Positions 9,815 to 24,590 of a DNA stretch of 64,000 nt are shown piece by piece. The notes beneath the pieces are model-generated. The model searched no databases, was not told where the DNA came from, and was given only the letters and a program-made list of their open reading frames with translations. The DNA comes from Nitrosococcus halophilus Nc 4 (GTDB taxonomy: Bacteria > Pseudomonadota > Gammaproteobacteria > Nitrosococcales > Nitrosococcaceae): the NCBI RefSeq assembly GCF_000024725.1, contig NC_013960.1:3210001-3274000 (forward strand). The letters are read 5' to 3'. Position 1 is the stretch's first letter. Each line of letters starts with the position of its first letter. The translations under genes and the position numbers were made by a program.

Positions 9815-11134
9815 ATGAATAAATTTGCCTCTAATTTACTATTGGCATTGATATGTTTACCGACGCTGTCTTTAAGTCAAGCTAAAGCAGATGAACACCA
9901 AAATGTTTATAATAAATATCTACAACCTGTGGTAACCGCTATCGATTATCACACCCGTATGATATATCTTCTTAACTATGAAGAAGACAAAATAATAACC
10001 ATAGACCCTTTCTTTATCGAAGGTTGGCCAGCTGATCTTCCACTGCAGCATACGATGGTATTACCGGAAGGGGATAGATTTTATGTGACCACCGATAATA
10101 CGGAAAATCATCCCTCGTATATCATCGCGTTGAAGGTTAATGAAATTGACTGGGATAATGGAACGGCGGAAGTACTCCTAGATTCGTTGTTGCCGGTAGA
10201 TGTTCCAAACACTCCGGCAGAATTGCCTTTTGTAGAATCCATCAACAATAACCAAGCCGTTCCTAACTGGCTATTGGCTCCGTCTACCCAAATTCACGGC
10301 CCCACATGGTTACCCTATTCAGATTTTGTCTACTTCACCGATTGGACGGGGGACAAGGTACGCGTTATTAATTACAAAACTAATGAATTTTCCGATGTCG
10401 ACCCTATCAGCATCCCCGGATACACCGAACAAACACATGGCATCATGTTTAATAAGTCGGGAACCCTAGGGTTGGGAACAGGGTATTTCTTTGATAATAG
10501 CGTTATTGATTTGTATAAAGCTAATAGAGAAACCGGCCAAGTGGAAGCCGTAAAACAAATCATGCTAGGTAATGAAAAACAGCATGCGGCTTTTTCACAT
10601 TATGTATTTTGGTTGGATGAACGCTATGCCATCACTGCCTCAATGCAATTTGACAAAACCTCTTTAACACCGTCCACTACACGTAGGATCATTCCACCGA
10701 GCGTATGGTTGATTGATGCCTGGGAAGGAACCGCCACTAGAATTATCAGGCATACCAACCATGTTAATGGGCATGGCATCTTTCGTTCTGCATCCGATAT
10801 TGCTGTTGTTGGAAACAAACTCTATATCGCAGAAGAAGACTCGATTGATCACACCTTTGCTGATGATGGCTATGTTTCAGTCTTTGATATAAGCAGCCGC
10901 TATCGGCCACGGTTTATAAAAAGATTCAAACCAGGTGAGGATTTTCCTGAAGGCTTTGCTGTTGCCCACACCCTGAGTCCAACGGCGGATAACCGATATT
11001 TGCTACTGGCAAGCTGGGTTTCGGGGTACATCATCAAAATTGATACCTTGACGGACACCGTCGTGAAAGTGTTCGGTCCCGGTGACGGCCTCGTAATGCC
11101 ACATGGCTTGTATGCCGCGGGCGGTATTCGTTAA
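9815..11134 (+). CDS. Secreted beta-propeller protein with seven blade-entry histidines
   Basis: A 439-residue exported protein: signal peptide 1-25 (cut near AKA), then seven weakly similar blades, each opening with a His and followed by a D/N-x-Y/F-(V/I)-x-strand pattern: His79, 161, 208, 257, 320, 385 and 430. Such His residues face the central channel in propellers; in nitrous oxide reductase seven of them hold the CuZ cluster. The gene is first in an operon with an SCO copper chaperone, and GAGGAAAC sits before the ATG. A known parallel is the copper enzyme methanethiol oxidase, encoded next to SCO1/SenC, but this protein lacks the motifs I know for that family. No enzyme activity is assigned. 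AT-rich codon use differs from neighbours. Confidence 0.75.
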   Translation: MNKFASNLLLALICLPTLSLSQAKADEHQNVYNKYLQPVVTAIDYHTRMIYLLNYEEDKIITIDPFFIEGWPADLPLQHTMVLPEGDRFYVTTDNTENHPSYIIALKVNEIDWDNGTAEVLLDSLLPVDVPNTPAELPFVESINNNQAVPNWLLAPSTQIHGPTWLPYSDFVYFTDWTGDKVRVINYKTNEFSDVDPISIPGYTEQTHGIMFNKSGTLGLGTGYFFDNSVIDLYKANRETGQVEAVKQIMLGNEKQHAAFSHYVFWLDERYAITASMQFDKTSLTPSTTRRIIPPSVWLIDAWEGTATRIIRHTNHVNGHGIFRSASDIAVVGNKLYIAEEDSIDHTFADDGYVSVFDISSRYRPRFIKRFKPGEDFPEGFAVAHTLSPTADNRYLLLASWVSGYIIKIDTLTDTVVKVFGPGDGLVMPHGLYAAGGIR

Positions 11135-11149
11135 TCACTGATTGTTGAA

Positions 11150-11197
11150 TGCACCAACCGGCCTATATATTTTCTAAAGTTAGGCCGGTTGGGTGCA
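11150..11197 (+). terminator. Long hairpin between the propeller and SCO genes
   Basis: TGCACCAACCGGCCTA pairs with TAGGCCGGTTGGGTGCA (16 pairs, one bulged G) around a 15-nt loop, 16 bases after the propeller stop. No T-run follows, so it may work as a processing or stability element that lowers expression of the two downstream genes, or as a partial terminator. Confidence 0.6.
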
Positions 11198-11246
11198 GCA
11201 CCGGCAATACAATCACAATAATTGACTAAGGAAGAATAACCTAGAA

Positions 11247-11825
11247 ATGAAAAATAGCTTCTTTGCAGTCATTATGCTTCTACTGTTTACCCCAGTCAAT
11301 ATAACAGCTGCAACCATTGTGCTGAGGAATCCCGCGCCTTTACAAAAGGAATCGATGGCCTACTTAAGACAAGGAAGTGAAAGCAACAGTGATCAATGGA
11401 AATTGGTTGTCTTTGGCTTTACGCATTGTAGCGATATCTGTCCCATGTCGCTGGCAAATCTTTCCATGCTGATGGAAGCTGCAGCAGAAGAACAAATCAA
11501 AATAGATGGAATTTTCGTGACAGTCGATCCAGATAGAGACACAAATGCGGTCTTAGCCGACTATACCAAAAAATTTGGGTCCAATATTTCCTATTTGCGC
11601 CTGCAAGGCGAAGATCTAAAACGCTTTAAAAGTACTTTCGGCGTAGAAGCTGTTTTCTATACAAAAAATATAGGAAATAGGTTCCACTACCAGGTTGATC
11701 ACAGTAGTACCGCCTTTCTAATTGATCCCGAAGGTAGAATTAGAGCGCTGTTCGATGCAGTGGAAGACGCAGGTGATATCGCGAAAATGATCCATGAGAA
11801 GGGAACATTTTTTAGCCATGAATAG
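11247..11825 (+). CDS. SCO1/SenC/PrrC family copper-binding thioredoxin-fold protein
   Basis: Periplasmic copper chaperone or thiol reductase; SCO proteins deliver copper to CuA-type sites or other cuproenzymes. 192 residues with an N-terminal hydrophobic signal segment (1-21). Copper ligands are intact: Cys61 and Cys65 in FTHCSDICP and His152 in VDHSSTAFLID. The core DPDRDT and the thioredoxin strand order fit the family. It lies between the seven-His propeller and an unknown exported protein; the latter starts 8 bases inside this gene. The context suggests it metallates the propeller, which is inference. No cytochrome oxidase gene is nearby. Confidence 0.88.
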   Translation: MKNSFFAVIMLLLFTPVNITAATIVLRNPAPLQKESMAYLRQGSESNSDQWKLVVFGFTHCSDICPMSLANLSMLMEAAAEEQIKIDGIFVTVDPDRDTNAVLADYTKKFGSNISYLRLQGEDLKRFKSTFGVEAVFYTKNIGNRFHYQVDHSSTAFLIDPEGRIRALFDAVEDAGDIAKMIHEKGTFFSHE

Positions 11826-12447
11826 GAAAGTGGCGCTAATAATTTTTGTTATATTGGCAGACACTGCCCCTGTCTTTGCCATGAACAACTACGATGATCC
11901 TCGAATTCTACTATCTTTCAAAGATAAATCCTTAACACCTGAGCTTGATATATTGCGCGTTAAAGCGAAGATCTCATCGGATAATCAGCTGATATTTGAA
12001 GTCAAAACAAGAGGAGAACGGATTAACGGGGAAACGGGGGATTACTTCTTATTACAGCTGATTAACGGGAAGTCTTATACTCTCCTCGCCCCTATAAATA
12101 AGACAAAGGAAGATAAAGTTTTAGTGTATGAGAGTACCCCCCAATCTAAAACTAACACACCCTCCTCCCTGTCCAAAAAGTTAAAAAAATTGAGTCCAAA
12201 AGCAGATTTCAGTACGAGACGCATACCCCATGGGATCGAGTACTTCATATCTATGGATTGGATCAATTTTGGCAATGACTTCAGCTATGATGCCTATACC
12301 GCCCAAGCGAGCATACAGGGAGATACTCTAAGCATCGATGAAATATACGATCAAGCAGGAAAGGGGCGCAAAGAAGAGAAACGATTTTCCGCCATTACAT
12401 TACTCAACAAACTCTGTACGACACGTAAAATCATTCTAACCGAATAA
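11818..12447 (+). CDS. Exported protein of unknown function, third gene of the cassette
   Basis: A 209-residue protein I do not recognise. Residues 1-21 make a signal peptide ending in VFA. The mature part is hydrophilic, with alternating beta-like strands (LDILRVKAKISSDNQLIFEVKT, DYFLLQLINGKSYTLLAPI), a basic loop (LSKKLKKLSPKA), and a charged C terminus. It has no cysteine in the mature part except one near the end (KLCTTRK) and no heme or metal motif. I take the ATG at 11818, which overlaps the SCO stop by 8 bases and has AGAAGGGA upstream; a start at 11794 is possible but would place charged residues ahead of the signal. Likely partner of the propeller and SCO proteins by operon structure. 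Confidence 0.65.
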   Translation: MNRKVALIIFVILADTAPVFAMNNYDDPRILLSFKDKSLTPELDILRVKAKISSDNQLIFEVKTRGERINGETGDYFLLQLINGKSYTLLAPINKTKEDKVLVYESTPQSKTNTPSSLSKKLKKLSPKADFSTRRIPHGIEYFISMDWINFGNDFSYDAYTAQASIQGDTLSIDEIYDQAGKGRKEEKRFSAITLLNKLCTTRKIILTE

Positions 12448-16593: not shown

Positions 16594-16878
16594 TTATCCA
16601 TACTTGGTGAGAATTCGCGTCAACTCTGACAATTTTTTCTGGACTGCGTCATTGAGCAAGCCCTCCTCATCAATTTCATTTTCGATAGCACAGGCCATCA
16701 TTTCACAAAAGGCTTTATTCACAGCGGTGCGAGAAGCGGCTAATTGCTGGGCAATGGATTCACAGCGTTCGCCTTCCTCGATCATACGACGGATCGCCCG
16801 GATCTGGCCCTCCACGCGTGCCAGCCTGGAAAGCAGTCCTTTCTTACGTGCGTCTTTCGAGCGGTCTAAATCAGACAT
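16594..16878 (-). CDS. CsoR/FrmR-family repressor, probable sulfur (persulfide) sensor
   Basis: A 94-residue all-helical repressor of the CsoR/RcnR/FrmR family (DUF156): LLSRLARVEGQIRAIRRMIEEGERC is the hallmark N-terminal helix. Cysteines are Cys39, Cys58 and Cys63. The His that binds Cu(I) in CsoR is replaced by Ala64, so copper sensing is unlikely; a thiol-based sensor like CstR fits better, since the divergent genes are YeeE/YedE sulfur transporters. I take the ATG at 16878 (AGGAG ahead of it) rather than an earlier in-frame start, because conserved sequence begins here and the operator lies between. An 18-bp operator at 16912-16929 overlaps its likely -10 box, implying autorepression. 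Confidence 0.85.
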   Translation of the reverse strand: MSDLDRSKDARKKGLLSRLARVEGQIRAIRRMIEEGERCESIAQQLAASRTAVNKAFCEMMACAIENEIDEEGLLNDAVQKKLSELTRILTKYG

Positions 16879-16911
16879 GAAGATCTCCTGGAAACACTTC
16901 TGAATACATAT

Positions 16912-16929
16912 TATACAGGCGGGGGTATA
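16912..16929 (-). promoter_or_regulatory. Operator of the CsoR-family repressor gene
   Basis: On the minus strand the site reads TATACCCCCGCCTGTATA, identical to 17239-17256 on the plus strand. TATAC/GTATA arms flank a C-rich core, the general form of CsoR-family operators. The last TATA is part of a good -10 box (TATAAT), so a bound repressor would cover the promoter; a weak -35 (TTATTT) is 17 bases upstream. Confidence 0.75.
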
Positions 16930-17238
16930 TAAAAATAAGCCTGTCATACGCCCGTATTGTATTCGCGGTTACTCAGAACAAATGGTACTCTTTCCATTGG
17001 ACCGGCCCCATTTTAGACGCTACCAGTGCGTTAATAAGTTTTGAGGGGTTGACTTTCCTGGCCTCTCATCCTTCCTCTTTGTGCCCAAAGCGCACGCTAA
17101 CAGCAAGAAAACGTCACATTCCTCCCAAAATTTTTACCGAGATACTTGAACATCAGGACAAGCTCCAGATAATCTAGCGTTAGTCTTGGGCACGTTTTCC
17201 TGAGTATAGAAAACCAAAGGTGGATCTTATTAATTTGA

Positions 17239-22787: not shown

Positions 22788-24590
22788 TTAGTGGAGGGGA
22801 TCGCGCTGCTTTGGTGTCAGTTGCTCTTTCCAGGGCTGAGGCAAATTCTGTACCCAACCATTATAGACCACAGGAATAGGAAGCAGACCTTGCCCCCCCA
22901 TCCCTGGATTGGCGGTAATAGTGTCATCCATGGCGGTCTCCGGAGTGGCGGTCAACAGGATCCTGCCTACCACTTTAGCATCGGAAGGATCTTCATCGCC
23001 GTTCGGATCGATATCCACTACCTGAAGCGTGTTCGCCGCCTGGCTGCTGATATAAGCATAGTATCCTCCACCCTTCTTAGCCCCGAATTGCACCCCATGG
23101 CAGCCGGCATCGCAAGGCAGGGAGGCCACCAGTTCATCCTTTCGGGTGTCCACGATGGTAATGGTGTCGGTCAAAATATTGGCTGTCACCATGGCGATAC
23201 CATCCGGGCTCACCGGGGTCTGGATCGGCAATCCGCCCACCGGGCCGGTGATCTCTCCCGTGAGCGGATTGTAATTCTGCAAGAGATTAATGGTTTTCAA
23301 CACCTCACCTGTTTGAGTTTCAATCAAAGTGAAGGTGCTATCAAGAAAATTCGCCACATAATACTTGCTAGAATCAGGCATCATGCCAGTAGCAATGGGA
23401 TGGGCTTCTAAGGTGCCGGTGGGGACGATCTCTAGGACTTCGTCCCTCCAAAAATCATAGATCGTCGAGTCCCCCGTGAAAACGTTGGGGGTTACCATGG
23501 TCATGCCATCATGTCCCATCCAGTGGGCATGGGGCCCTGGCCTGCCAATATCGATCTCCCGCTCCACACCGTTGGCGAGAGGGGCCAACTCAACCACCGA
23601 TTCTTGGTCATCGGAACCATTGAGAGAGACGTGTAGTTGGTCGGTATCTACCCGGGTCATCACATGGGCTGGCGCTTCGCCCACCGTTATTCGGTCTATC
23701 AACTGGCCTGTTTCTCGCTCGAATAGGGTCAGCTTGCTATCAAACCATTCGGTGACATAAATCAGATTCTGGTCCCGATCAGTCCACATATTGTGGGGAT
23801 TGTTCATCTCGATATGGGGCAAAGAGACTTTCCGTGTGACCTCCCAAGTGGTGGCATCCACGGCCGTTGCAGTCCCTGGCTTTTCTTTATCCGCCGTAGT
23901 TTCAAACTGGGTATCCACCCAGACTTCTCCTACGCCTTCTCGGGATGGAGTTAAGAGGGCAGGTAATTCAGTATCATTGCCATATCGGGCGTTTAACACC
24001 TGGGGTAGATTGACTACTGCGCCGCCAGCGATGCGTACGTTAACATTCGGATAGCTGACATGCCAGGGCTCCGTGGAAGCAAAATTCTGCCAATTGGCAG
24101 GTTCAGTCAGGATAAAAAATCCTCGCAGCAGCCGGGTAGCCAAATCACTGCTGGTGGGTACCGTGATCCCATTGATGAGCGTAATGTTTTCACCAAGATC
24201 TAGCCCTTCTGTTGTGGGATCGTCCACCACTACGGCTCCCAACATGTAGGGATGAATCTGGCAAAAAAAGACATACAACCCCGGGGTCGTTAACTCTACC
24301 TCCGCACTTCCCTTTTGAGGGTCAGTGTCAAAGGGCATATTGGCAGCACCAGCAGGATAGAGCAGGCTGGTCATAGTGTGAACCGTATTCGATTCCCCCT
24401 TGAACCGGACCTCTACCCCAGGAGTCCCCACACCCAACGAACCCGCACCTGCTACCGGACCGGCAGCATTTCTGAACCAACGACCTGGCCCATCATTGAG
24501 TTCAAAGACAGTCCGATTACTTCCCTTATCCCCCAAGGCTAAGCCGGGGAAAACGAATACCAAAATAAGTACATATTCAATCATTCTCAT
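22788..24590 (-). CDS. Secreted cupredoxin / YVTN beta-propeller fusion protein
   Basis: A 600-residue exported protein: signal peptide 1-20, a type-1 copper domain to about 125, a linker, and a beta-propeller from about 250. The copper ligands are His71 (NTVHTMTS), Cys110, His113 and Met116 (FCQIHPYM), a Cx2Hx2M loop. The propeller has YVTN-like strands (LIYVTEWFDSKLTLFE, YYVANFLDSTFTLIE) and His at blade entries: 259, 266, 309, 354, 356, 360, 397 and 498, plus Cys493 and Cys497. This resembles nitrous oxide reductase built in reverse, though the sequence is not NosZ. It may be a periplasmic copper enzyme or electron carrier. Monocistronic. Confidence 0.8.
   Translation of the reverse strand: MRMIEYVLILVFVFPGLALGDKGSNRTVFELNDGPGRWFRNAAGPVAGAGSLGVGTPGVEVRFKGESNTVHTMTSLLYPAGAANMPFDTDPQKGSAEVELTTPGLYVFFCQIHPYMLGAVVVDDPTTEGLDLGENITLINGITVPTSSDLATRLLRGFFILTEPANWQNFASTEPWHVSYPNVNVRIAGGAVVNLPQVLNARYGNDTELPALLTPSREGVGEVWVDTQFETTADKEKPGTATAVDATTWEVTRKVSLPHIEMNNPHNMWTDRDQNLIYVTEWFDSKLTLFERETGQLIDRITVGEAPAHVMTRVDTDQLHVSLNGSDDQESVVELAPLANGVEREIDIGRPGPHAHWMGHDGMTMVTPNVFTGDSTIYDFWRDEVLEIVPTGTLEAHPIATGMMPDSSKYYVANFLDSTFTLIETQTGEVLKTINLLQNYNPLTGEITGPVGGLPIQTPVSPDGIAMVTANILTDTITIVDTRKDELVASLPCDAGCHGVQFGAKKGGGYYAYISSQAANTLQVVDIDPNGDEDPSDAKVVGRILLTATPETAMDDTITANPGMGGQGLLPIPVVYNGWVQNLPQPWKEQLTPKQRDPLH

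Follow-up and report, generated by a model that had tools for sequence, protein, structure and literature searches.

Does the three-gene locus at 9815-12447 encode an undescribed copper enzyme together with its own assembly kit? The locus belongs to an ammonia-oxidizing bacterium. Ammonia-oxidizing bacteria are a source of much of the N2O and NO that leaves soils and waters, and to our knowledge some redox steps of these organisms are still without an assigned enzyme. The window is the whole stretch of Nitrosococcus halophilus Nc 4 DNA analyzed here, 64,000 nucleotides long (G000:C2:3210001-3274000), within a genome of two replicons and 4,145,260 bases. The first-pass annotation had described three genes at this site and had proposed that they form a copper oxidase or reductase with its maturation unit. 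The three co-directional open reading frames were confirmed, all on the plus strand (9815-11134, 11247-11825, and 11794-12447). A signal-peptide-like stretch opens each of the three encoded proteins. The features of the locus are listed below.

9815-11134, plus strand: exported YVTN-type beta-propeller, 439 aa
11150-11197, plus strand: intergenic hairpin in the gap between the propeller and SCO genes
11247-11825, plus strand: SCO1/SenC copper chaperone, 192 aa, dedicated to the cassette
11818-12447, plus strand: exported protein P3, starting at a conserved Met

The third open reading frame encodes 217 aa from 11794. The start of P3 is most likely at 11818, because Met9 of this frame corresponds to a Met that is conserved in all 22 sequences, and with this start the P3 and SCO genes share 8 nt. 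The overlap is 4 nt in most loci and ranges from 4 to 8 nt when the true start is counted. The third gene had been described as encoding an unknown exported protein and overlapping the SCO gene, and all three points held.

The order propeller-SCO-P3 was found in 22 of the 25 propeller loci examined, and the flanking genes vary between loci. An adjacent SCO gene is missing at three propeller copies, namely two Nitrosococcus second copies and L051. At L059, a porin gene separates the propeller from the SCO gene. In all, porin-like genes of two families were seen near the cassette at nine loci of Nitrosospira-type and Nitrosomonas genomes, L059 included (L051, L055, L058, and L059; L046, L052, L060, L007, and L008). 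The distance matrices of the propeller, SCO, and P3 were compared pairwise, giving r = 0.84-0.90, and none of 2000 permutations was as high. Gene order and sequence covariation indicate that the propeller, SCO, and P3 are one transferable unit that is co-inherited as an operon. No description of a propeller-SCO-P3 cluster was found in the ammonia-oxidizer literature.

The second gene was verified as a complete SCO, as had been claimed from Cys61, Cys65, and His152. The protein matches the SCO1-SenC Pfam family (PF02630) at 3e-31, with 108.6 bits against a cut-off of 22.8, and both the Cys61-x3-Cys65 motif and His152 are invariant in 22 of 22 relatives. It therefore shares the CxxxC motif and the distal His with SCO1/SenC proteins in general; however, the cassette SCOs form a separate group. 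They are 53-83% identical to the window SCO, whereas the other SCOs of the same genomes are only 22-43% identical, and the 21 top-scoring matches to the window SCO all come from cassettes. By these sequence relationships, the SCO is dedicated to the cassette and constitutes a group of its own.

The propeller was more difficult to place. No Pfam family scored over its cut-off, no NCBIfam family covers the protein, and the comparison with the PDB gave nothing past weak YVTN blade matches. The YVTN repeat profile (TIGR02276) stays under its curated cut-off on the window propeller alone. The same profile matches 19 of 21 members of the propeller family, with a best value of 2.4e-10, and the YVTN propeller fold is thus supported by sequence. 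Seven blades were counted from the sequence register, and the mature protein contains no Cys. An AlphaFold2 model, built from the window protein and four homologues in a 5-sequence alignment, reached a mean pLDDT of 49.7. Its PDB matches say "propeller" only, with the zinc protein AztD among the weak fold matches, and the His geometry was not read from this model.

Conservation of the His residues was then used to examine the putative metal site. The first-pass annotation had named seven His residues, each opening one blade. Five of them, His79, His161, His208, His385, and His430, are invariant in 25 of 25 propeller sequences, as is His262, and His257 is kept in 23 of 25, with Tyr in L053 and L060. 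His320 is present in the window protein and is kept in only 5 of 25 sequences, the others having K, R, P, Q, A, or N, so that this residue drops out of the set. The invariant set holds down to 41-46% identity. Five of the six invariant His start an innermost strand (strand A), with the second strand about 10-12 residues further on, and His430 belongs to the final strand; if NosZ is a guide, this strand would close blade I. By this register, His430 is assigned to blade I, His79 to blade II, His161 to blade III, His208 to blade IV, His262 with His257 to blade V, and His385 to blade VII. The picture of one His per blade is wrong, because His320 is not conserved, one blade has a second His, and one has none: six of the seven blades bear His, blade V is doubled with His257 five residues before His262, and blade VI is empty. 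In place of a His, blade VI has a loop with invariant acidic residues (E340-E341-D342-x-x-D345), located between its second and third strands.

How much of this pattern speaks for a metal depends on what an ordinary propeller looks like. In other YVTN propellers of the same genome, about three blades show a His at this register, and in several from the host genome and its relatives the number is three to five. Some of the His register is thus common to the superfamily, and part of the His pattern may be structural. Six of the 13 mature His fall in the 93 invariant columns (hypergeometric p ~0.05), and this enrichment, taken alone, is modest. Both observations agree with an ordinary YVTN or lactonase-like propeller whose strand-A His are structural and whose channel is free of metal. 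The SCO would then be a thiol-disulfide protein or serve another target, and its target need not be the propeller. We consider this explanation unlikely, since it leaves unexplained the invariant His in six blades, which appears from the alignment to be the unusual part of the pattern, as well as a dedicated SCO that keeps its copper ligands throughout and co-evolves with the propeller. The repeated His register and the conserved dedicated SCO outweigh the p value of the column enrichment. From these features we infer that the propeller binds copper.

The geometry of the CuZ cluster of nitrous oxide reductase had been suggested for these His residues. In NosZ, six of the seven blades give His, with two consecutive residues in blade II and none in blade IV; the innermost strand of blade I comes from the C-terminus and bears a CuZ His; and a calcium site lies in the loop between strands 2 and 3 of the His-free blade (PMC11573801). 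The window protein resembles NosZ by register in being an exported seven-blade propeller with six His-giving blades, one of them doubled, and a C-terminal His in blade I. Similarly, the loop of the His-free blade, calcium-binding in NosZ, is invariant and acidic here, a parallel that is suggestive only. However, blade V is the doubled one and blade VI the empty one here, against II and IV in NosZ, and the second His is five residues away instead of adjacent. No CuA or cupredoxin domain was found: the propeller ends at Arg439 just past His430, with no mature Cys and no cupredoxin Pfam match. The CuZ geometry is therefore only partly borne out; six His blades with one doubled agree with it, while the unconserved His320, the non-adjacent second His, the different empty blade, and the lack of CuA do not. 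The identity of the protein as NosZ was rejected on the missing CuA domain and the different His and blade pattern. The NosL family (PF05573) was absent from 15 of 16 genomes tested, including all four Nitrosococcus genomes, with one weak match in G449; this is not a strict test, because PF05573 is also absent from two L-NosZ genomes.

L-NosZ is the clade III, lactonase-type nitrous oxide reductase represented by NF052460, according to the citation of He et al. (Nature 2025) in PMC13122619. Real L-NosZ sequences from two genomes share with the window protein a YVTN/lactonase-like propeller and His at the same strand-A register. However, the CuA domain is fused to the propeller in L-NosZ (L064 and L065) and is missing here, and neither an SCO nor a P3 gene was recognized beside the two L-NosZ genes examined. 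The NF052460 profile gave the window propeller 11.1 bits (E 0.098) against a cut-off of 700 bits and matched 3 of 21 relatives weakly. Alignment to L-NosZ by hhalign gave an E value of 0.0012, but with a probability of 19% over 57 columns, which is a weak blade-level match. Membership in L-NosZ was rejected on the NCBIfam profile, the real members, and hhalign. We also weighed whether the His order could match that of L-NosZ after a circular shift. This idea was abandoned, since in NosZ a strand from the C-terminus closes blade I (PMC11573801), an arrangement that fits the window protein as well and leaves no rotation to choose freely.

Methanethiol oxidase had been offered as a parallel. In many bacteria, an SCO1/SenC gene comes after mtoX, and the MTO protein is itself a copper enzyme, whose conserved His ligands are His89, His90, His140, and His412 (PMC5739008). 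The likeness to MtoX/SBP56 consists of an SCO gene downstream of a propeller gene and goes no further. The propeller did not match the SBP56 profile (PF05694), P3 takes the place of MauG with no MauG-like gene recognized in the cassette, and the His set is different. Membership in the methanethiol oxidase family was rejected on the lack of a PF05694 match and of MauG alongside. A functional replacement, in which a copper propeller oxidizes methanethiol or other thiols, would fit the mtoX-SCO1/SenC pairing and the finding that no SBP56 family member occurs in the 14 cassette genomes tested. We regard it as very improbable, because SBP56 similarity and MauG are both missing, the His ligands are unlike those of MTO, and the distribution of the cassette tracks ammonia oxidation and not methylated-sulfur metabolism.

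A periplasmic propeller can also handle metal outside catalysis. The periplasmic protein AztD is a propeller of eight blades that binds zinc and passes it on; it has a conserved disulfide, and its gene is part of an operon for an ABC transporter (PMC6689063). On this precedent, the window propeller could be a non-catalytic carrier that stores or passes copper or another metal, with the SCO as its exchange partner. AztD was among the weak matches of the poor model, Nitrosomonadales are rich in copper-related proteins (PMC6769254), and the two kinds of outer-membrane porin near nine loci could serve uptake. However, the likeness to AztD is that of a periplasmic propeller, metal-binding in AztD and putatively so here. 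The window protein has seven blades by register and no mature Cys, the cassette contains no ABC transporter gene, and no sequence similarity to AztD was detected. In addition, an all-nitrogen site of six or seven His would probably be unusually tight for a carrier. This role is therefore doubtful, to the same degree as the metal-free propeller.

P3 has no Pfam, NCBIfam, or PDB match. It carries one invariant Cys (Cys208 in the numbering of the 217-aa frame) and no invariant His. Its model (pLDDT 60, pTM 0.62) predicts a beta-sandwich with a C-terminal helix. Almost every Foldseek match was an immunoglobulin domain, at E values from about 0.015 upward, and because these matches are weak, the fold call is limited to "beta-sandwich".

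The hairpin at 11150-11197 has a near-perfect stem, and the whole gap between the propeller and SCO genes has a folding energy of -36.4 kcal/mol (z -5.2). Hairpins at z -2.5 or lower are present in this gap in 15 of 21 cassettes; the sequences are unrelated and the position is equal. Operators responsive to NO (FNR/NNR-like and NsrR-like) were searched upstream of the 25 propeller genes, and the scattered low-quality matches gave no consistent site. About 4 kb from the cassette, at 16594-16947 on the minus strand of the window, a small protein has by eye the look of a CsoR/FrmR-type repressor and is not conserved with the cassette.

The distribution of the propeller was determined at several levels. 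The full-length propeller is present in all four Nitrosococcus genomes at 85-100% identity, and two of these four have a second copy that is 41-46% identical. Within Nitrosomonadaceae, about 34 of 100 sampled genomes gave a full-length match, in Nitrosomonas and a second genus fitting Nitrosospira. A class-level search of 369 genomes found full-length matches only in the genome itself and in one of Nitrosomonadaceae, and a phylum-level search of 399 genomes added only one weak 82-residue match. A pattern scan over the contigs of 84,980 species genomes, which detects close relatives only, returned Nitrosomonas and betaproteobacterial MAGs only. No propeller relatives were found in the plasmid and viral collections. 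The cassette has so far been seen only in ammonia-oxidizing bacteria (Nitrosococcus, Nitrosomonas, and Nitrosospira). Its carriers include species grown in the laboratory, and its small size also makes it accessible to direct study.

Phylogenetically, the cassette copies of the four Nitrosococcus genomes fall inside a 9-row clade with Nitrosomonadaceae (support 99/97), and the Nitrosococcus second propeller copies branch far outside that clade. The nesting of Nitrosococcus within Nitrosomonadaceae sequences indicates that the cassette was transferred between the two ammonia-oxidizer classes, in either direction. About two thirds of the sampled Nitrosomonadaceae genomes lack the cassette, and it is therefore most likely an accessory trait of ammonia oxidizers. 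G475, G485, and G478 contain short pieces of a propeller gene interrupted by stop codons, which suggests repeated loss of the cassette.

A second copper-associated propeller is encoded in the same window, as given below.

22788-24590, minus strand: cupredoxin-like domain followed by a His-rich YVTN-like propeller, 600 aa

The candidate type-1 copper ligands of this protein, H71, C110, H113, and M116, are invariant in 7 of 7 sequences, and its PDB matches include the beta subunit of hydrazine synthase (3.5e-5). Close relatives were found in 11 of 19 other ammonia-oxidizer genomes tested (12 with its own), with one more weak match, and identity within the family is as high as 81% when Nitrosococcus and Nitrosomonas are compared. 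The family also includes a longer form, to which multicopper-oxidase-like domains are joined. At least two families of His-rich propellers associated with copper thus seem to exist in ammonia oxidizers, and the second of them mildly strengthens the copper reading of the first.

Two further observations concern the SCO-less second copies of the cassette propeller. In G003 (L042:7314-14798), multicopper-oxidase-like genes are found at a distance of a few kb from the copy, and one of these genes is the long cupredoxin-propeller fusion. A conserved exported protein of about 166 aa with a His-rich C-terminal tail and no Pfam match is encoded directly upstream of the second copies (L041:6972-7475 and L042:6715-7215).

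The propeller, SCO, and P3 have the appearance of a copper enzyme not described before, together with the proteins that assemble it. Taken together, the best explanation, held with moderate confidence, is that the three genes make up a copper-protein cassette of ammonia oxidizers that is mobile and self-contained, and in which a copper propeller is matured by its own SCO. Judged by its sequence features, the propeller itself is most likely an undescribed copper protein with that SCO as its maturation factor. The original proposal of a copper oxidase or reductase with a maturation unit therefore stands as the best reading, on the co-travelling genes, the separate SCO group, and the lack of a covering family, although its CuZ geometry holds only in part.

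In such a cassette, the SCO would load copper into the channel of the propeller, where His430, His79, His161, His208, His262 with His257, and His385 would form a His-only copper site. P3 may hold the propeller or help to load it, or it may be a small partner subunit, and the hairpin probably keeps the level of the propeller mRNA above that of the chaperone. The holoprotein would then oxidize or reduce some small molecule of the periplasm. Since the cassette has been found in ammonia oxidizers alone and is exchanged between both of their classes, the first guess for this substrate is a nitrogen oxide or a compound related to hydroxylamine (NO, N2O, or NH2OH), and a thiol is the second. The most specific version of this mechanism is a new nitrification copper enzyme with an all-His multinuclear site and no CuA, matured by the SCO and P3, which converts NO, N2O, or a hydroxylamine-derived species. 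That version is tentative and, in its full form, rather unlikely.

The restriction of the cassette to ammonia oxidizers and its exchange between two distant lineages point to a function linked to the lifestyle of these bacteria. If the copper reading is true, the propeller would be an example, other than NosZ, of a copper propeller that is lined with His and served by a dedicated chaperone.
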